A stretch of DNA of 64,000 bases from Dawidia soli (GTDB taxonomy: Bacteria > Bacteroidota > Bacteroidia > Cytophagales > Cyclobacteriaceae). The stretch spans positions 62,001 to 126,000 of the forward strand of contig NZ_JAHESC010000008.1 in the NCBI RefSeq assembly GCF_018598185.1, in the 5' to 3' direction. Positions 7,435 through 60,827 of this stretch are shown here, piece by piece. The position numbers and the translations under genes are program-made. The notes below the pieces were generated by a model that did no database searches, was not told the origin of the DNA, and saw only the letters and a list, made by a program, of their open reading frames with translations. Position 1 is the first letter of the stretch, and each line of letters starts with the position of its first letter.

Positions 7435-8002
7435 TGAGCAATATAATCCACATTAAATAAGTGTAATAACATACACATCAACGCGAAAAATCGGATGCTT
7501 TTAAATTGTCCATGAGGACATTGAATTGCTCTCATTCCGGTCCCCCCCTGGGGCACGACACAATAGCCCAGCCTGGAGCGCCAGCGCAGGGCTGGGTAAT
7601 ACGTAACACAGAATATTCAAGCCCTGAAGGGGCGTAACAATCACGCACAGGCTTTGCCTGGAATTTGTTGTTGCGCCCTTACAGGGCTTTGCCTTTCCCT
7701 ATACCTTTACCCCAGGCCTTCAGCCTGGGCTGATATGTTACGCCCTTACAGGGCTGCGTCTTTGCCTATACGCAAATCAGGTGCTTTTTTAATTGATCCC
7801 CGGTGGACATTGAATTGCTCTTCATTCCGGTCAGCCCTGAAAGGGCACGACACAATAGCCCAGCCTGGAGCGCCAGCGTAGGGCTGGGTAATACGTAACA
7901 CAGAATATTCAAGCCCTGAAGGGGCGTAACAATCACGCACGGGCTTTGCCTGGAATTGTTGTTGGGCGCTTAGAGAGCGCCGGTCTCTAACAGCCTCTAC
8001 AT
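7435..8002. repeat. Gene-free spacer filled with dispersed palindromic repeats
   Basis: No credible gene. About 158 bp occurs twice in nearly identical form: 7517-7673 and 7806-7964, each starting GACATTGAATTGCT and running through an AGCCCAGCCTGGAGCGCCAGCG block. That block contains a CCCAGCC/GGGCTGGG inverted repeat. Within and between the copies lie stem-loops of the form AGCCCTGAAGGGGCGTAACAA ... GCGCCCTTACAGGGCT (for example 7620-7688), plus a second ACGCCCTTACAGGGCTGCG unit near 7740. The same family recurs at 29525-29588. These behave like REP/MITE-type intergenic elements; no transposase is present. Confidence 0.75.
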
Positions 8003-49606: not shown

Positions 49607-50368
49607 TCAAAGCACAAGAAAAGAAGGATTCAGCAGCGAGGGTTTGTTATATACCAGCTCGTGTTCCTGCCCTGCCTGCAGAATGCGCAGGCCCGTTTCG
49701 TGTAAGATCGCATGCGGGGCCGCGGTATCCCACTCCATCGTGGGTGCATAGCGGGGATATACATCCGCCGCGCCTTCCGCCAACAACATAAATTTCAAAC
49801 TACTGCCTTTCGACAACAACGACGGTGCTTCCAGCGCATCGACAAAATCTTTTGTTTCCGCATTCATATACGAGCGCGACGCCACCACGCGCAGGCGCGG
49901 CTGATCCAGGGTGACCGGCGTACGACGCGCCAGGGCCTCTGCCTTCCCCTCGCGCGCGCGGAACGCACCGTGCCCCTCCACAGCGTAATATACATCGCCG
50001 GTAACGGGCACCGCCACCACGCCCAGTACCGGGCGCTGCTGATGAATAATGGCGATATTTACCGTGAATTCGCCGTTGCGTTTGAGAAATTCTTTTGTGC
50101 CGTCCAGGGGGTCGACCATCCAGAAGTATGGCAGGTCCTTGCGGGTATCGTAGGGCATCTCCTTTCCTTCTTCGCTCAGCACAAAAAGCCCCGTGGGCGC
50201 CAGGTGCCCGGCAATGACCGCGTGCGCCAGCTTGTCGGCACGGGTCACGGGCGACTGGTCGCCTTTGGCTTCTGCCTGAAAATCGCCGGAGGTATATACT
50301 TCCAGGATCACCTGGCAGGCCTCGCGGGCGGCGTTCAGCGCGATGGGTAGTAGCGCGGGCAGATCCAT
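49607..50368 (-). CDS. cysQ: 3'(2'),5'-bisphosphate nucleotidase
   Basis: 253 aa from the ATG at 50368, which overlaps the cysN stop (TGATG). Inositol-monophosphatase superfamily with the CysQ set: VLSEEGKEM (metal-binding Glu), WMVDPLDGTKEFLKRNGEFTVNIA (metal ligands D-P-L-D-G-T), and TMEWDTAAPHAIL. It hydrolyses 3'-phosphoadenosine 5'-phosphate, the by-product of PAPS use. A longer upstream frame in the same phase runs through cysN and is not real. It is the last gene of the sulfate-activation operon. Confidence 0.92.
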   Translation of the reverse strand: MDLPALLPIALNAAREACQVILEVYTSGDFQAEAKGDQSPVTRADKLAHAVIAGHLAPTGLFVLSEEGKEMPYDTRKDLPYFWMVDPLDGTKEFLKRNGEFTVNIAIIHQQRPVLGVVAVPVTGDVYYAVEGHGAFRAREGKAEALARRTPVTLDQPRLRVVASRSYMNAETKDFVDALEAPSLLSKGSSLKFMLLAEGAADVYPRYAPTMEWDTAAPHAILHETGLRILQAGQEHELVYNKPSLLNPSFLVL

Positions 50369-51624
50369 CAAACGATCATGCCCGCCGCGACGGTCTCGTT
50401 GGTGCTTTCGTCTACCAATATCACACTGCCCGTAATGCGGTTCTTGCGATAGCTGTCGATCAGCAGCGGCTGCGCCGTGCGGATCCTTACGCGGGCAATG
50501 TCGTTCATCGTCAGCTGGTCGATGTTTTCCAGGCGGTGCAGCGAGTTGATGTCCAGCTTGTATTGGATCTCTTTCAGCACACCGCGCACTTCGCGTGACG
50601 TGTGGCGTACATAGAGCTTGGTATTGAGGTTGACGGGGCGCTGGTTCATCCAGCACAGCATCAGGTCGATGTCTTGCTCGGCCTGCGGCTGGTTGTTGGG
50701 CTTGGCAATAACATCGCCGCGACTGATGTCGATCTCGTCTTCCAGCGTCAGCGTGACCGACATCGGCGCGAAGGCCTCCTCCAGCAGCTCACTACCAAAG
50801 TGGATCGCCTTTACCTTCGACTGAAATCCCGAAGGCAATACCGTCACATCATCTCCCGGGCGGAAAATACCACCCGCCACGCGGCCCGCATAGCCGCGAA
50901 AGTCATGATGCTCTTTCGACTGCGGACGCACCACGTATTGCACGGGGAAGCGGCTGTCGATATGGTTATGATCGCTTTCAATATGCACGGTCTCCAGCAT
51001 GTGCAGCAGCGTCGCGCCCTGGTACCAGCTCATGGCCTCCGAGCGGTTTACGACGTTGTCGCCCGCCAGCGCGCTGATCGGTACAAATTGGATATCCGAT
51101 ACTTCGAGCTTCGAGGAGAACGCTTTATACTCGTCGACGATGCGCTCGTACACAGACTGGTCGTATTCCACGAGGTCCATTTTATTCACGCAGACGATGA
51201 TGTGCGGGATCTTCAGCAACGAAGCGATGAACGAGTGGCGGAACGTCTGCTCGACCAATCCTTTGCGCGCATCGATAAGGATCAACGCCAGGTTGGCGGT
51301 CGAGGCCCCGGTCACCATGTTGCGGGTATATTGAATATGGCCCGGTGTATCGGCAATGATGAATTTACGCTTGGGCGTGGCAAAATAACGATAGGCCACG
51401 TCGATGGTGATGCCCTGCTCACGCTCGGATTTTAAGCCGTCGGTCAGCAGCGACAGGTCCACATAATCGAACCCTTTCTTGGCACTCGAGGCTTCCACGG
51501 CGGCAAGCTGGTCTTCAAAGATTGACTTGCTGTCGTACAACAGGCGGCCGATCAGGGTGCTCTTTCCGTCGTCTACACTGCCGGCTGTTGTAAAACGTAG
51601 AAGCTGGTTGTTGATATTGCTCAT
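50368..51624 (-). CDS. cysN: Sulfate adenylyltransferase subunit 1 (GTPase)
   Basis: A 418-aa translation-factor-like GTPase. G1 is AGSVDDGKST (residues 14-23), G2 near DVAYRYF, G3 DTPGHIQYTRNM and G4 CVNKMDLV; EF-Tu domain 2 and 3-like parts follow. With CysD it makes adenylyl sulfate (APS) from ATP and sulfate, driven by GTP hydrolysis. It is 418 aa, with no fused APS kinase, consistent with the separate cysC gene. It follows cysD by 18 bases and overlaps cysQ by one base. Confidence 0.95.
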   Translation of the reverse strand: MSNINNQLLRFTTAGSVDDGKSTLIGRLLYDSKSIFEDQLAAVEASSAKKGFDYVDLSLLTDGLKSEREQGITIDVAYRYFATPKRKFIIADTPGHIQYTRNMVTGASTANLALILIDARKGLVEQTFRHSFIASLLKIPHIIVCVNKMDLVEYDQSVYERIVDEYKAFSSKLEVSDIQFVPISALAGDNVVNRSEAMSWYQGATLLHMLETVHIESDHNHIDSRFPVQYVVRPQSKEHHDFRGYAGRVAGGIFRPGDDVTVLPSGFQSKVKAIHFGSELLEEAFAPMSVTLTLEDEIDISRGDVIAKPNNQPQAEQDIDLMLCWMNQRPVNLNTKLYVRHTSREVRGVLKEIQYKLDINSLHRLENIDQLTMNDIARVRIRTAQPLLIDSYRKNRITGSVILVDESTNETVAAGMIV

Positions 51625-51642: not shown

Positions 51643-52551
51643 TTAGAAGTAGCCTGATTTTTTCCGGTCTTCCATGGCGGTCTCCGAGCGCTTGTCGTCC
51701 GCGCGCGTGCCCCGCTCCGTCTTCCGCGAAGAGGCTACCTCTTCGATGATCTTTTCAATGGTGTCGGCAAACGATTCTACCGCGCCCGTGATCGGCATGT
51801 CGCCGCAGGTACGGAAACGCACGATGCGCTTCGTGGGGATCTCGCCGGCCTTCAACTGCAGCCAGGGTGACGTCGACAACAAGGCGCCGTCGCGTTCGAT
51901 CACCTCGCGCTCGTGCGACAGGTAGAGCGTCGGGATCGGGATGTTCTCGCTATAGATGTATTGCCACACATCCATCTCCGTCCAGTTCGAGATGGGGAAC
52001 ACCCGGAAGTGCTCGCCGATGTGTTTGCGGCCGTTAAACAAGTTCCAGAGCTCCGGGCGCTGGTTCTTCGGGTCCCACTGGCCGAACTCGTCGCGGTGTG
52101 AAAAGAACCGCTCCTTGGCGCGTGCCTTCTCTTCGTCGCGCCGCGCGCCGCCCATGGCGGCATCGAACTTATGTTGTTCGATCGTGTCCAGCAGTGTGAC
52201 GGTCTGCAGGGCGTTTCGGCTGGCGTTGACACCCGTCTCTTCGCGCACACGGCCTTTGTCGATGCTCTCCTGTACCGAGCCTACGATCAGCTTTACGCCG
52301 AGCTCGTTCACGAGCCAGTCGCGATACTCCATCGTCTCCGGAAAATTATGACCGGTGTCGATGTGTACCAGGGGAAACGGGATCCGCGCCGGCGCGAACG
52401 CCTTGCGCGAGAGATACGCCAGGACAATAGAATCCTTGCCGCCCGAAAACAGCAGTGCGGGTTTTTCGAACTGCGCGACAACTTCACGGATCACGAAGAT
52501 CGCTTCGGCTTCCAGTTCTTTTAAGTGACTCAGGTAATATGGATTACTCAT
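51643..52551 (-). CDS. cysD: Sulfate adenylyltransferase subunit 2
   Basis: A 302-aa PP-loop ATP pyrophosphatase family subunit. The PP-loop is LLFSGGKDSIVLAYL (residues 36-41, SGGKDS). The family also shows VHIDTGHNFPETM and the C-terminal VRFRTCGDMPITGAVES, followed by the RKSGYF end. It performs the adenylyl transfer to sulfate. It lies 36 bases downstream of cysC and 18 bases upstream of cysN. Confidence 0.95.
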   Translation of the reverse strand: MSNPYYLSHLKELEAEAIFVIREVVAQFEKPALLFSGGKDSIVLAYLSRKAFAPARIPFPLVHIDTGHNFPETMEYRDWLVNELGVKLIVGSVQESIDKGRVREETGVNASRNALQTVTLLDTIEQHKFDAAMGGARRDEEKARAKERFFSHRDEFGQWDPKNQRPELWNLFNGRKHIGEHFRVFPISNWTEMDVWQYIYSENIPIPTLYLSHEREVIERDGALLSTSPWLQLKAGEIPTKRIVRFRTCGDMPITGAVESFADTIEKIIEEVASSRKTERGTRADDKRSETAMEDRKKSGYF

Positions 52552-52587: not shown

Positions 52588-53190
52588 TTACACGGCTGCT
52601 TTCAGGCTGATCCGGCTGCGGAGGAACGAAAGCAACGTTTCCATCGATTCTTCCACGCTTTGCAAATGCGTGGGAATATGTACATCAGGCTGTACGGGTG
52701 GCTCATACGGCGAGTCGATTCCTGTAAAGTTCTTTACCTCGCCGGCACGTGCCTTTTTATACAGCCCCTTCACGTCGCGCTGCTCGCATACTTCCAGCGG
52801 CGCATCGACAAACACTTCAACAAAATTCTCCGCCCCTACGATCGCCCGCACCTGCTCGCGGTCTGCCGCAAACGGCGAGATGAAAGCCGACAATACGATC
52901 ATGCCCGCATCGACAAACAGCCGCGACACCTCACCGATGCGACGGATGTTCTCCACGCGGCCTTCGTCGGTGAACGAAAGGTCCTTGTTCAGACCGTTGC
53001 GAATGTTGTCGCCGTCCAGCAGGTATGTCTTGAAGCCCTGCAGGTGCAGGTGGGCTTCCAGCTGTACCGCCAGGGTGGATTTACCCGAGCCTGAAAGACC
53101 GGTAAACCACAGGACAACCGCGCGCTGTTGCAGCAATGCCTCACGCTGCGCCTGGCTGACCTTAGTTTGTATGGGATAAATATGATTCAC
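52588..53190 (-). CDS. cysC: Adenylyl-sulfate kinase
   Basis: A 200-aa APS kinase. The P-loop is FTGLSGSGKST (29-39), followed by YLLDGDNIRNGLNKDLSFTDEGR and the lid segment VFVDAPLEVCEQRDVKGLYKKA. It phosphorylates APS to PAPS, the sulfate donor for sulfotransferases. It is first in a leftward operon with cysD, cysN and cysQ. About 117 bases of leader precede it and include a tiny Cys-rich frame and hairpin. No PAPS/APS reductase or sulfotransferase is in the window. Confidence 0.95.
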   Translation of the reverse strand: MNHIYPIQTKVSQAQREALLQQRAVVLWFTGLSGSGKSTLAVQLEAHLHLQGFKTYLLDGDNIRNGLNKDLSFTDEGRVENIRRIGEVSRLFVDAGMIVLSAFISPFAADREQVRAIVGAENFVEVFVDAPLEVCEQRDVKGLYKKARAGEVKNFTGIDSPYEPPVQPDVHIPTHLQSVEESMETLLSFLRSRISLKAAV

Positions 53191-53232
53191 GATGATACAG
53201 AAAGTTGGTGGTGGATAAATACAGTGCAGAGG

Positions 53233-53248
53233 TGAGCCGGGAGGCTCA
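53233..53248 (-). promoter_or_regulatory. Leader hairpin starting at the stop codon of the Cys-rich leader peptide
   Basis: On the minus strand TGAGCC (53248-53243), loop TCCC, GGCTCA (53238-53233) form a perfect 6-bp stem whose first three bases are the TGA of the leader reading frame. A ribosome stalled on the Cys codons or at the stop would prevent or allow this structure to form. No T-run follows, so control of translation or of Rho action fits better than intrinsic termination. Confidence 0.6.
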
Positions 53249-53287
53249 ACACAAGTAGCAACAACAATGAATATGCGCCTTCTTCAT
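53246..53287 (-). CDS. Cys-rich leader peptide of the sulfate-activation operon, 13 aa
   Basis: ATG at 53287, TGA at 53246-53248, encoding MKKAHIHCCCYLC: four of thirteen residues are Cys, three of them consecutive. It lies between the predicted promoter at 53314-53343 and the cysC start at 53190, and its stop merges with a hairpin. Three adjacent Cys codons are very unlikely by chance and fit a sensor of charged tRNA-Cys. A ribosome pausing there would report cysteine shortage to the cysC-D-N-Q genes. The logic matches amino-acid attenuators and the Cys-rich leaders known upstream of sulfur genes in Actinobacteria. The assignment is from position and composition, not homology. Confidence 0.7.
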   Translation of the reverse strand: MKKAHIHCCCYLC

Positions 53288-53313
53288 AAAAACCACTAAA
53301 CTGGTAGATATTA

Positions 53314-53343
53314 CAAAGGTAAAACGAATGCAGCAGTGTGCAA
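53314..53343 (-). promoter_or_regulatory. Promoter of the leader-cysC-cysD-cysN-cysQ operon
   Basis: On the minus strand TTG (53343-53341) and TACCTTTG (53321-53314) are 19 bases apart, matching the -33/-7 elements of this phylum. Transcription would start near 53307, about 20 bases upstream of the leader ATG at 53287. Confidence 0.55.
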
Positions 53344-53364: not shown

Positions 53365-53407
53365 GGGAAATTCGATCGTACAAACACTCGGTAGTACCGA
53401 ATTTCCC
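53365..53407 (-). terminator. Hairpin after kdsA
   Basis: GGGAAATTCG (53365-53374) and CGAATTTCCC (53398-53407) form a perfect 10-bp inverted repeat with a 23-base loop. On the minus strand it follows the kdsA stop directly and precedes the cys promoter, so it would separate the two transcription units. Confidence 0.5.
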
Positions 53408-53427: not shown

Positions 53428-54261
53428 TTAGTGGTGCAGCGTGTGCAGCTCCCAGTAACGTTTGAGCATCCGCAGAAAGTCCTCCATCTGGTGCAGGGGG
53501 ATCATGTTGGGGCCATCGCTCAAGGCCTTTTCAGGGTTCGGGTGTGTTTCGATAAAGAAACCATCCACGCCGGCAGCGGCCGCAGCACGGGCCAGGAACG
53601 GCGCAAACTCGCGCTGACCGCCCGACGAGCCTCCTTTGCCGCCCGGCTGCTGCACCGAGTGGGTCACGTCAAAGATCACCGGTGTATACTGCCGCATGAT
53701 GGGCAGCGAGCGCATGTCCACCACCAGGGTGTGATAGCCAAAGCTGGCGCCACGCTCGGTCAGGAACACGTTATTGTTACCCTCGCCGCGCACTTTGTCT
53801 ACGGCGTATTTCATGTCTTCGGGCGCCATGAACTGGCCCTTCTTGATCTTGACCGCTTTGCCGGTACGGGCCGCGGCTTTCAGCAGGTCGGTCTGCCGGC
53901 ACAGGAAGGCCGGGATCTGCAGCACGTCTGCTACCTCGGCAGCCTCCGCGCACTGGTACGACTCGTGCACGTCGGTGACGATCGGCACCTGCAGGTCTTT
54001 CTTCACGCGGCGCAGGATATCCAACCCACCCTCTACACTCGGCCCGCGGTACGAACCCGACGAGGTGCGGTTGGCTTTGTCGAACGACGACTTGAAGACA
54101 TAAGAAATATCGAGCTTCTCACACAGGGCCTTTACCTGCGAGCCGGTCTCCATGCAAATGTCATAGCTCTCGGCCGCGCAGGGGCCTCCAAACAGCACCA
54201 TGCGTTCACCCCCGAGGGTGATGCGGTCGGCGATCTGTACGGTATCTTTAAACTTATCCAT
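53428..54261 (-). CDS. kdsA: 3-deoxy-8-phosphooctulonate (KDO-8-P) synthase
   Basis: A 277-aa KdsA. GGPCAAES carries Cys28 at the position that defines the metal-dependent class (E. coli-type enzymes have Asn there). Further hallmarks are [50 protein letters not shown] and [18 protein letters not shown]. It condenses phosphoenolpyruvate and arabinose-5-phosphate to make KDO-8-phosphate for lipopolysaccharide core or capsule. It follows kdsC by 23 bases. Confidence 0.95.
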
Positions 54262-57918: not shown

Positions 57919-58009
<91 letters not shown>

Positions 58010-58406: not shown

Positions 58407-58480
58407 GGCCCGATAGCTCAACTGGATAGAGCATCAGCCTTCTAAGCTGACGGTTCGGGGTTCGAGTCCCTGTCGGGTCA
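58407..58480 (+). tRNA. tRNA-Arg (anticodon UCU)
   Basis: 74 bases. Acceptor GGCCCGA pairs with TCGGGTC, with discriminator A at 58480. The anticodon stem TCAGC/GCTGA encloses CTTCTAA, giving UCU for AGA/AGG. The T-arm is CGGGGTTCGAGTCCCTG. The 3' CCA is not encoded. It is directly followed by a strong terminator and then by AT-rich DNA holding the Septu-like genes. Confidence 0.95.
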
Positions 58481-58672: not shown

Positions 58673-59956
58673 ATGTATATAAAAGAAGTTGAGATTAAAA
58701 ATATACGTTCCATTAAAGACTTCAAGATGGAGTTTCCACAATATGCAGGCTGGCATGTTTTGATTGGAGACAACGGCGCCGGAAAATCAAGCATCATAAG
58801 ATCAATTGCATTAGCGCTGGTCGGTCCGGAGGAAGCTCTTGGACTACGAGCTGATTGGCGCGACTGGCTTAATCATCAGGAAGCTGAGGGACGAATATCG
58901 CTTTCGTTAGCGAACGGAGAAGAAGATAAGCAGAGTGGTAGGAGCGCGCAATTAAGGAATTTTTATATACCGAACGAAATATCTTTTCACCGAATCAACG
59001 ATCAGGTTACGTTTTCAAGTAATAAAGGTAAGGGAAGCCCGAATCCAATGCGGTATAATTGGGGATACGGAGCTGGATGGTTTTCCGTCGCATACGGCCC
59101 CTATCGTCGTTTTGCCGGGGGAAATCCGGAATGGACAAAAGTATTTTATTCGCAGCCGAAGTTGGGCGCTCATTTATCCGCGTTTGGAGAAGATATCGCC
59201 TTGACCGAAGCCACCGAATGGCTGGTAAAACTCAACTACCAAATCCTGGAAGGAAAGGAACCCAGTGATTTACTGGACAATATTAAACGACTCATTAACT
59301 CGGTTGATTTTCTTCCCCATAAGGCTGAGATAGAAAGCATCAGCTCAGATGGTGTTACTTTTAAAGACGGTAACGGCTCGCTTATCAATGTCAATCAGTT
59401 AAGCGACGGATATCGTTCCGTCTTAAGCTTAACCTTTGAACTTATCAGGCAACTTGTCAGGGTATACGGATCCGATGCTGTTTTTAAAGATATTAAAGAC
59501 GGAGACTTACAAGACATGAGAATAAACCTTCCCGGTGTTGTGCTCATCGATGAGGTTGATGCCCACCTGCACCCTACCTGGCAGACAAGAATCGGGCAAT
59601 GGTTCACTAAATATTTTCCCAACATCCAGTTCATCGTTACAACGCATAGCCCGCTAATTTGTCGCGCCAGTGATAAGGGTACGATCTGGCGACTTGCCGC
59701 ACCTGGAAACGAAGAGGCCCCAAAAGAAGTCACCGGCGACGACCGGAATCGGCTGATTTACGGCAACGTGCTGGACGCATATGGGACTGAAATTTTTGGC
59801 TCGGATGTAAGCATCAGCTTGGAAGCCGTGGAAAAAAAAGAAGAACTCGTCACATTGAGTAAAAAGAAAACGGCAGGCGTCATTACATCCGATGAAGAAG
59901 GTAAATTAAACGAACTTCGAAAAACGTTTTCTACAGATGATCCAGTTGACCTCTAA
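58673..59956 (+). CDS. Septu-like AAA/ABC-type ATPase (PtuA-like)
   Basis: A 427-aa ATPase of the OLD/RecF-like ABC type: YIKEVEIKNIRSIKDFKMEF, Walker A IGDNGAGKSS (31-40), signature LSDGYRSVLSLTFEL, Walker B VVLIDEVDAHLHPTWQ, and H-loop FIVTTHSPLI. There is no TOPRIM domain at the end, unlike OLD nucleases. The partner HNH nuclease overlaps its last 20 bases. ATPase plus HNH nuclease in this order is the Septu anti-phage layout (PtuA/PtuB). Codon use is AT-rich, with 18 G/C in the 60 bases at 58681-58740 against a clearly GC-richer neighbourhood, which suggests transfer. A TATTTTTG box at 58584-58591 may be its promoter. Confidence 0.8.
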   Translation: MYIKEVEIKNIRSIKDFKMEFPQYAGWHVLIGDNGAGKSSIIRSIALALVGPEEALGLRADWRDWLNHQEAEGRISLSLANGEEDKQSGRSAQLRNFYIPNEISFHRINDQVTFSSNKGKGSPNPMRYNWGYGAGWFSVAYGPYRRFAGGNPEWTKVFYSQPKLGAHLSAFGEDIALTEATEWLVKLNYQILEGKEPSDLLDNIKRLINSVDFLPHKAEIESISSDGVTFKDGNGSLINVNQLSDGYRSVLSLTFELIRQLVRVYGSDAVFKDIKDGDLQDMRINLPGVVLIDEVDAHLHPTWQTRIGQWFTKYFPNIQFIVTTHSPLICRASDKGTIWRLAAPGNEEAPKEVTGDDRNRLIYGNVLDAYGTEIFGSDVSISLEAVEKKEELVTLSKKKTAGVITSDEEGKLNELRKTFSTDDPVDL

Positions 59957-60827
59957 AAACATCTCCCTCTCGTCTCTTGCGCATTTGTCTGCCGTTACCC
60001 AAACAATTATGCAGGGCGCATCTTTTGAAGACCAAGTCCAAAAAGCAAAATCCAAATGGAACAACAAAGGATCAGGCCTCGGACAAGGCGCATTTGCGGA
60101 CATAAAAAAGACACTCCTTGAAATGTGCGTGGGCGTTGAAATCTGCGCCTACTGTGAGCAAAATGAAGCTACCGATATCGAACATATTTTCCCCAAAAGG
60201 CTTTATCCTGAAAAAGCCTTCTCCTGGGAGAATTATATTTTCGCCTGTAGTAAATGTAATACGCACCACAAATCCGACAAATTCAAGATCTTTGATCCCA
60301 AAAACTCAGTTATCGAAACAGATATAACACCTAAAAGAGGAACATTTACAAAACCCCCGACAGAAGACTCACTATTCATTAATCAGCGTATAGAAGATCC
60401 AATGGACTTCTTCGAACTCGATCTGGTCAATCAGCAGTTCATCTTCACAGAAAAACACCCTCCAGGAACAAGAAACTATCTTAAAGCCAAGTTCACGAAA
60501 GAAGTACTGGGCCTAAACACAAGGGCTACGCTTATTGAGAGCAGAAAAAAAGCTGTAATGTTTTACATCTCTCGTCTGGAGAAATTTGTGAAGGCCAGCG
60601 CAACGACAACGCACGAAGAACTAAGTAATTCAATTAACGACGATTGGAAAAGTGTCGACCATGCAAAGGACTTTGTTCAGGAAAAGACCAGAATATTGTC
60701 ATCCATTAAGAAAGACATTCTTGAGTATTCCCATCCCACCGTCTGGAAAGAACTAATTAGGCAAAGAGCTAATCTACCAAAAACGAACAATCTCTTACTT
60801 CAAGCCCCCGAGGCGTTGACCTGGTAG
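59937..60827 (+). CDS. HNH endonuclease, PtuB-like
   Basis: A 296-aa HNH nuclease of the retron/Septu-associated type. The zinc and catalytic pattern is C70-A-Y-C73, D80-I-E-H83 followed by IFPK, W97-E98-N99, and C104-x-x-C107-N108. The helical C-terminal half (after 150) has no recognised motif and may contact the ATPase. It overlaps the ATPase gene by 20 bases, so the two are translationally coupled. In Septu the ATPase controls the nuclease that degrades invading or host nucleic acid; here this role is inferred from layout. Confidence 0.8.
   Translation: MIQLTSKNISLSSLAHLSAVTQTIMQGASFEDQVQKAKSKWNNKGSGLGQGAFADIKKTLLEMCVGVEICAYCEQNEATDIEHIFPKRLYPEKAFSWENYIFACSKCNTHHKSDKFKIFDPKNSVIETDITPKRGTFTKPPTEDSLFINQRIEDPMDFFELDLVNQQFIFTEKHPPGTRNYLKAKFTKEVLGLNTRATLIESRKKAVMFYISRLEKFVKASATTTHEELSNSINDDWKSVDHAKDFVQEKTRILSSIKKDILEYSHPTVWKELIRQRANLPKTNNLLLQAPEALTW

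Follow-up and report, generated by a model that had tools for sequence, protein, structure and literature searches.

Putative Cysteine-Sensing Leader Peptide Upstream of cysC-cysD-cysN-cysQ in Dawidia soli and Related Polycysteine Leaders in Bacteroidia

Based on sequence comparison, we suggest that a frame of 13 codons located upstream of the sulfate-activation operon cysC-cysD-cysN-cysQ in Dawidia soli (G000) is probably the gene of a cysteine-sensing leader peptide, which would control the operon without an intrinsic terminator. Control by Cys-tRNA is supported because leaders ending in Cys precede cysC in six of the seven genomes of the genus, and Cys leaders are found on operons of sulfite reductase (sir) and of SAM riboswitches (S boxes) in the same genome and in its relatives.

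Organization of the cysC Locus

The operon is located in the window, i.e., the whole stretch of 64,000 nucleotides that was analysed. The features relevant to its control are as follows.

53314-53343, minus strand: promoter, composed of TTG (53343-53341), 19 nt and TACCTTTG (53321-53314)
53293-53307, minus strand: palindrome-like CTACCAGTTTAGTGG between promoter and leader start, a possible operator
53287-53246, minus strand: leader frame MKKAHIHCCCYLC, 13 codons, stop codon TGA at 53248-53246
53266-53258 and 53251-53249, minus strand: Cys codons of the leader, TGT TGT TGC and TGT, respectively
53233-53248, minus strand: hairpin TGAGCC-TCCC-GGCTCA starting at the leader stop codon, not conserved
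53191-53245, minus strand: spacer of 55 nt from leader stop to cysC with 22 C and 6 G, a candidate Rho entry site
52588-53190, minus strand: cysC (APS kinase), GTG start, Pfam APS_kinase
51643-52551, minus strand: cysD, Pfam PAPS_reduct
50368-51624, minus strand: cysN, Pfam GTP_EFTU
49607-50656, minus strand: cysQ-like frame, Pfam Inositol_P at residues 102-342

The leader reads ATG AAG AAG GCG CAT ATT CAT TGT TGT TGC TAC TTG TGT TGA. Its four Cys codons, three of them adjacent, are those described in the initial annotation, and the Pfam domains support all four genes of the operon named there. The hairpin had been placed 42 bases before a cysC ATG; 42 nt do separate the hairpin end from the start codon, but this codon is GTG (53190), and the leader stop lies 55 nt from it. 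The listed GTG start of the cysQ-like frame is probably too far upstream, because it makes the frame run into cysN, and the domain match begins only at residue 102.

The upstream neighbour, kdsA as judged by eye, ends at 53428, and 237 nt of intergenic sequence precede cysC. Between these two genes there is an inverted repeat (53365-53407; 17 nt, 82% complementary), which is probably the terminator of the kdsA-like gene. In locus L031, one of its pairs is altered on both sides (by eye).

The region had also been credited with a good promoter. No sigma-70-type sites were found upstream of cysC (0 matches), but TTG-19 nt-TACCTTTG, which we take to be the Bacteroidota promoter type, is present. 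Its TACCTTTG box was invariant in five of the five genus sequences aligned (G003, nearly identical to G005, was omitted). Since the leader ATG stands 26 nt past TACCTTTG, the leader of Dawidia soli is probably not leaderless.

Conservation of the Leader Among Relatives

The closest named relative is Parachryseolinea silvisoli (Cytophagales), with a CysC identity of 94%. A leader ending in Cys was found at the same position before cysC in six of the seven genus genomes, Dawidia soli included. The peptides are MKKAHIHCCCYLC (G000), MKKVHLHYCCCYLC (G002), MYRSDSDNTIFYTHQAAFQEIARSSEHHCCACKQTCCW (G001), MYRSDSGNTFFYAHLTACQIIDCSFEHNCSACKHSCCGQ (G004) and MDRSHSGNKCFEAH(HT/RL)GVYRIDGSVRCRLHSCKLLCCW (G003 and G005). 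They vary in length from 13 to 39 codons and are otherwise divergent; what stays constant is the ATG behind the promoter, the terminal Cys codons and the gap to cysC. The last clustered Cys is 0-2 codons before the stop in 6/6 leaders, the gap from leader stop to cysC is 50-57 nt in all six genomes, and cysC itself starts with a non-ATG codon (GTG or TTG) in each of them. The leaders of G000 and G002 differ by synonymous changes (TGC/TGT, TAC/TAT), by substitutions outside the Cys block and by whole codons. It should be noted that the six leaders represent few lineages (a pair of sister species and a second group of four) and cannot be counted as independent. Four Cys among 13 codons before a sulfate-activation operon, with Cys-ending counterparts giving six genomes in all, constitute the sequence signature expected of a leader peptide.

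In the seventh genome, G006, the promoter and TTAGTGG are retained and the leader frame is absent. Other relatives with at least 70% CysC identity (L007, L008/L034, L009/L037, L032, L035, L036, L038, L039 and L040) have no such leader either. The cysC leader may therefore be young or often lost in this group. A survey of 110 loci, which included some genomes twice and required CC or three Cys, gave no convincing Cys leader before cysC outside the genus, nor before an SLC13-like gene found ahead of cysC in several relatives; its gap rule missed the genus loci L003, L006 and L033, which were recovered by other inspection. In Pontibacter pamirensis (L052, 1961-2068, plus strand), a CCC frame (MRSSCERLNRCCCFV..) was observed 57 nt before a cysQ-like gene. 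No Cys leaders were found before cysH in the three of seven genus genomes where this gene was placed (G000, G002 and G006). The comparison with relatives that the initial annotation had proposed bore out the Cys-ending frame within the genus, but the hairpin was confined to two sister species and no convincing leader at cysC was found outside the genus at the loci surveyed.

Possible Mechanism at cysC

We suggest the following course of events. When Cys-tRNA is scarce, the ribosome would stall on the Cys codons abutting the leader stop, and expression of the operon would go up. When cysteine is plentiful, the ribosome would finish the leader and leave, and expression would go down. Translation of the frame, stalling, the direction of the response and the participation of Rho are all inferred.

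The next step that we favour, tentatively and at somewhat less than even chances, is the shielding of a Rho site. The stalled ribosome would cover the start of the unstructured, C-rich and G-poor spacer of 55 nt and exclude Rho in a tna-like manner, and after its departure the spacer would be open to Rho. The C/G counts of the spacer in the six leader-bearing genomes are 22/6, 20/6, 16/4, 17/6, 14/5 and 12/5. An excess of C over G of at least 8 was observed in five of them; among 104 upstream regions used as controls, 5.8% showed such an excess. A protein with a Rho RNA-binding domain is encoded as well.

A close rival, which we consider less probable than Rho shielding, is translational control, where the stalled or terminating leader ribosome would alter access to the GTG/TTG start of cysC through coupling, re-initiation or unfolding. 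The constant gap of 50-57 nt and the non-ATG start of cysC in all six genomes agree with it, and the mycobacterial case is termed translation attenuation in the accessible part of PMC13236596 and described likewise in that of PMC9031893. However, no conserved structure was found from leader to cysC in the six species (z between -1.44 and 0.84 for the whole segment and between -1.07 and 2.22 when folding started at the stop), and the pairing of the leader Cys codons with downstream bases or the cysC start region showed no excess over shuffles (z from -0.90 to 1.31).

It is also conceivable, though rather improbable, that a repressor bound at CTAC-N7-GTGG beside the promoter controls the operon and that the frame is a by-product. 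All six genomes with a leader retain this element, and part of CTACCAGTTTAGTGG (TTAGTGG or TAGTGG) also persists in G006 and G021, where the leader is absent. Similar CTAC..GTAG sites are located before the sir leaders of the genus (L172-L175, L177 and L178), and before 10 of 54 sir leaders in all. Three Rrf2-family genes were found above the cut-off; that their products act at the CTAC-N7-GTGG site is only an idea. Against a repressor as the sole control, it leaves the Cys ends of six divergent leaders unexplained, and the operator-like pattern gave fewer matches than its reversed control in all seven genus genomes searched and therefore defines no regulon. A promoter-side operator alone could do the cysteine sensing, and the repressor and leader controls may act together. 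In addition, L205, L210, L212, L215 and L218 share CTACTAATTCC...CTATA near the promoter upstream of the sir leader (by eye), a possible operator.

The initial annotation had favoured classical attenuation through the hairpin at the stop codon. This perfect 6-bp stem (53248-53233), four of whose six pairs are G-C, does open with the leader stop, and five of the pairs persist in G002. Nevertheless, its role as a working part is very improbable: the stem is absent in the four other leader-bearing genomes (G001, G003, G004 and G005), neither an intrinsic terminator nor a T-run was found between leader and cysC in G000, and the fold from leader to cysC does not beat shuffles (z -0.14 in G000). On these grounds the hairpin was ruled out as a switch; the locus has neither a terminator nor an antiterminator opposing one. 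Of the proposed Cys-tRNA-dependent attenuation, control by Cys-tRNA is backed by the comparison, but its classical hairpin form at cysC is not borne out. At the gathering score, no Rfam family was found over the leader in the window, in L001 and L003, nor in eight sir loci (ten loci). RF00162 (S box) had no match in the window, so none precedes the cysC leader.

Finally, a chance frame without function would be very short, as this one is, and the frame has no counterpart at cysC outside the genus, but when the 237-nt intergenic region was shuffled 5000 times with its dinucleotides preserved, only 4 shuffles contained an ATG frame of 8-60 codons that had CCC and a minimum of four Cys, and the common position, ATG and Cys end in six genomes make this the least credible reading.

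Leaders of Sulfite Reductase Genes

In many Cytophagales, the sulfite reductase gene (PF01077) is preceded by a Cys leader, along with a strong hairpin that carries a T-run. At the sir locus of Dawidia soli (L172), MTSKAPFYATQSHETSSMKMCWCKRFLREAGAWKRDGL is followed by GAGCCTTTCCTGCAACCTGGGAAGGCTC with TTTTATTT and then by the gene. Bacteroidia loci were selected by a rule requiring a frame 8-60 codons long in which a stretch of five codons holds two Cys, followed before the gene by a hairpin of -9 kcal/mol or lower with a T-run. The rule was passed by 54 of 110 loci and failed by 56, the passes being divided between an order-level search (23/36) and a class-wide draw (31/74), in which 76 of 295 genomes matched and which itself supplied 30 loci. 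Two of the 54 automatic calls are doubtful: in L258, the frame and the end of the gene before it overlap; in L265, the leader contains masked bases. L180 has a Cys leader with a weak hairpin (-7.2) and fails the rule. Ten loci (L188, L204, L208, L211, L213, L220, L224, L230, L257 and L265) carry two units of Cys leader and terminator in tandem.

ATG begins 53 of the 54 chosen frames, and Cys accounts for 257 of their 1737 residues. Runs of three identical residues before the terminator were formed by Cys in 32 of 110 loci, by Leu in 11, by Thr and Val in 5 each, and by others in 0-2; the Leu and Val runs fit other reading frames of the Cys codons.

As a control, 56 other genes of the same loci were considered: 9 had a terminator, 5 passed when a Cys pair was required and 1 when CCC was required. 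Regardless of a terminator, six control genes are preceded by a CCC frame, five of them being of sulfur or methionine type (by eye); the sixth, in L255, is formyltransferase-like and has no evident link to sulfur. Three of the five sulfur- or methionine-type genes directly precede sir (L226 by 63, L237 by 23 and L249 by 2 nt) and are therefore probably heads of sir operons, so that the control set lies partly inside the studied set. In L226, the polyCys frame (..CMCCCCCCTY) before a homoserine dehydrogenase-like gene has a hairpin without a T-run directly at its stop, as in the window (by eye).

The segment from the last clustered Cys codon to the terminator was then paired with the 5′ arm of the terminator and compared with shuffles. 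The mean z for the 54 loci was -2.75, with p ≤ 0.05 in 36 loci (37 with new shuffles), and 17-18 loci missed p 0.05. The segment before the Cys codons gave z 0.16 (1/54), and the own segment with the arm of another locus gave -0.61 (10/54). As judged from this predicted pairing against its controls, the sir leader tail fits its own terminator in the way known from trp-type attenuation.

Leaders Behind SAM Riboswitches

S boxes are present in 52 of 59 relatives, and Rfam finds RF00162 in the sir-region loci L249, L258, L272 and L275. The 52 S boxes examined comprise 30 search loci, 14 taken from G021 and the genus, and 8 within sir regions; in this non-random sample, the S box is followed in 31 cases by a frame that opens with ATG and contains CCC or two CC pairs. 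The first ATG of these leaders is 7-15 nt past the aptamer in 24/31 and 3-26 nt before the aptamer end in 7/31.

When the next gene was classified by short motifs, a polyCys leader preceded 15 of 17 metY-like genes, 6 of 10 PLP genes of AIRTQ type, none of 11 metH, neither of 2 PVDELTG-type genes and 10 of 12 others (metY-like vs. metH, Fisher p = 3.6e-6). In Dawidia soli, polyCys leaders follow the S boxes of L312 (metY-like, ..IICCMCNNACCCMCRC) and L313 (..DRCCC), but not that of L314 (metH). Pairing of the Cys codons with downstream sequence in 26 S-box leaders had a mean z of -0.25 (p ≤ 0.05 in 3/26). C-richness behind these leaders is weak, with means of 14.8 C and 10.3 G and an excess of at least 8 in 6/31. 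A conserved stretch near GTGACAGGYATGRTTACGGCTACG was seen by eye after the leader stop before metY-like genes (L312, L315, L320, L322, L323, L325 and L326).

Two Architectures of Cys Leaders

It is likely that the cysC leader of Dawidia soli belongs to a Bacteroidia-wide set of putative Cys-tRNA-sensing leaders with two architectures, A and B, in which the mechanism would be evident from where the Cys run lies with respect to the stop. In architecture A, the Cys cluster is followed by about ten more codons, an antiterminator and an intrinsic terminator before sulfite reductase genes, in some cases in tandem. In architecture B, which lacks a terminator, the run of Cys abuts the stop, and the leader either directly follows a SAM riboswitch or, as at cysC, stands on its own. 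The number of codons after the last clustered Cys has a median of 10 in sir leaders (n = 54; 0-2 in seven of them), and it is 0-2 in 25 of the 26 S-box leaders examined out of 31, where a terminator within 120 nt was found once in 26.

In architecture A, a ribosome stalled on Cys would leave the antiterminator free. In architecture B, it would sit on the stop codon and the bases following, which would fit either Rho-site shielding or control exerted directly on translation. Behind a SAM riboswitch, architecture B may allow one transcript to read both SAM and Cys-tRNA, before metY-like and other genes and before none of the 11 metH genes in the sample.

If this is true, Bacteroidota would have a cysteine sensor that is concrete and open to testing, and the same sensor would operate both with a terminator and without one. 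An S box with a polyCys leader behind it would then be a natural switch with two inputs, methionine and cysteine. A Cys run at the stop without a terminator, and about ten codons earlier with one, is a direct prediction of mechanism.

Comparison with Known Systems

Cys leaders on mycobacterial cys operons were reportedly described by Canestrari in 2020, a work known to us through the papers citing it. These are PMC13236596, PMC9094748 and PMC9031893, each available in part. That Cys-rich leaders were already known in Actinobacteria, as the initial annotation stated, agrees with the available sections of PMC1262725 (Seliverstov, 2005), which report runs of Cys close to the stop ahead of cys operons in Mycobacterium, note the lack of terminators and suggest Rho. 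As far as these partial sources go, the cysC leader of Dawidia soli resembles the mycobacterial polycysteine attenuators in being a short frame before sulfur genes with a Cys run near the stop and no terminator hairpin. It differs in phylum, and the mycobacterial ORFs are leaderless, whereas the ATG in G000 lies 26 nt after the promoter box. By inference from this analogy, the leader in the window would work like the mycobacterial ones in another phylum.

The sir leaders of Dawidia soli and its relatives resemble attenuators of the trp/his type in having Cys codons, an antiterminator and an intrinsic terminator, whereas the cysC leader lacks both of the latter. In the tnaC-tnaAB operon, a ribosome held at the leader end shields a Rho site beside the stop, and TnaC senses free Trp via the nascent chain. 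Shielding of a Rho site next to the leader stop is also the model that we favour at cysC; however, empty Cys-tRNA would be sensed there, and the Rho step is a candidate. The Rho-dependent control of tna is mentioned in the accessible text of PMC1262725. In the wider set, many polyCys leaders directly follow a SAM-I riboswitch (RF00162), but the one at cysC does not.

According to the available part of PMC8632094, the uORFC-8-2 motif precedes cysS in Rhodobacterales. It too is a uORF that carries tandem Cys codons and belongs to a gene related to cysteine, but it has an intrinsic terminator, its gene is cysS and it occurs in alpha-proteobacteria. In the accessible portion of PMC2965389 (2010), leader-peptide systems are said to have been shown only in Proteobacteria and Actinobacteria, and Firmicutes are added. 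For Bacteroidota, partial texts mention leader-peptide attenuation before amino-acid operons of Flavobacterium psychrophilum, with Cys not named there (PMC9723704), and leader-like short frames in Bacteroides thetaiotaomicron (PMC7366714). Among open-licence PMC papers, Table S7 of PMC9723704 excluded, we found no Cys leader described for Bacteroidota.

Other Features of the Window

An Acido-Lenti-1 RNA match was found at 7711-7755 (plus strand) with 38.4 bits against a gathering score of 37. The window also contains a Septu-like defence pair on the plus strand, PtuA (58673-59956; PDLC00269, E 8e-153) and PtuB (59937-60827; PDLC00340, E 2e-80), which is located downstream of two tRNA genes (57919-58007 and 58407-58480, plus strand).
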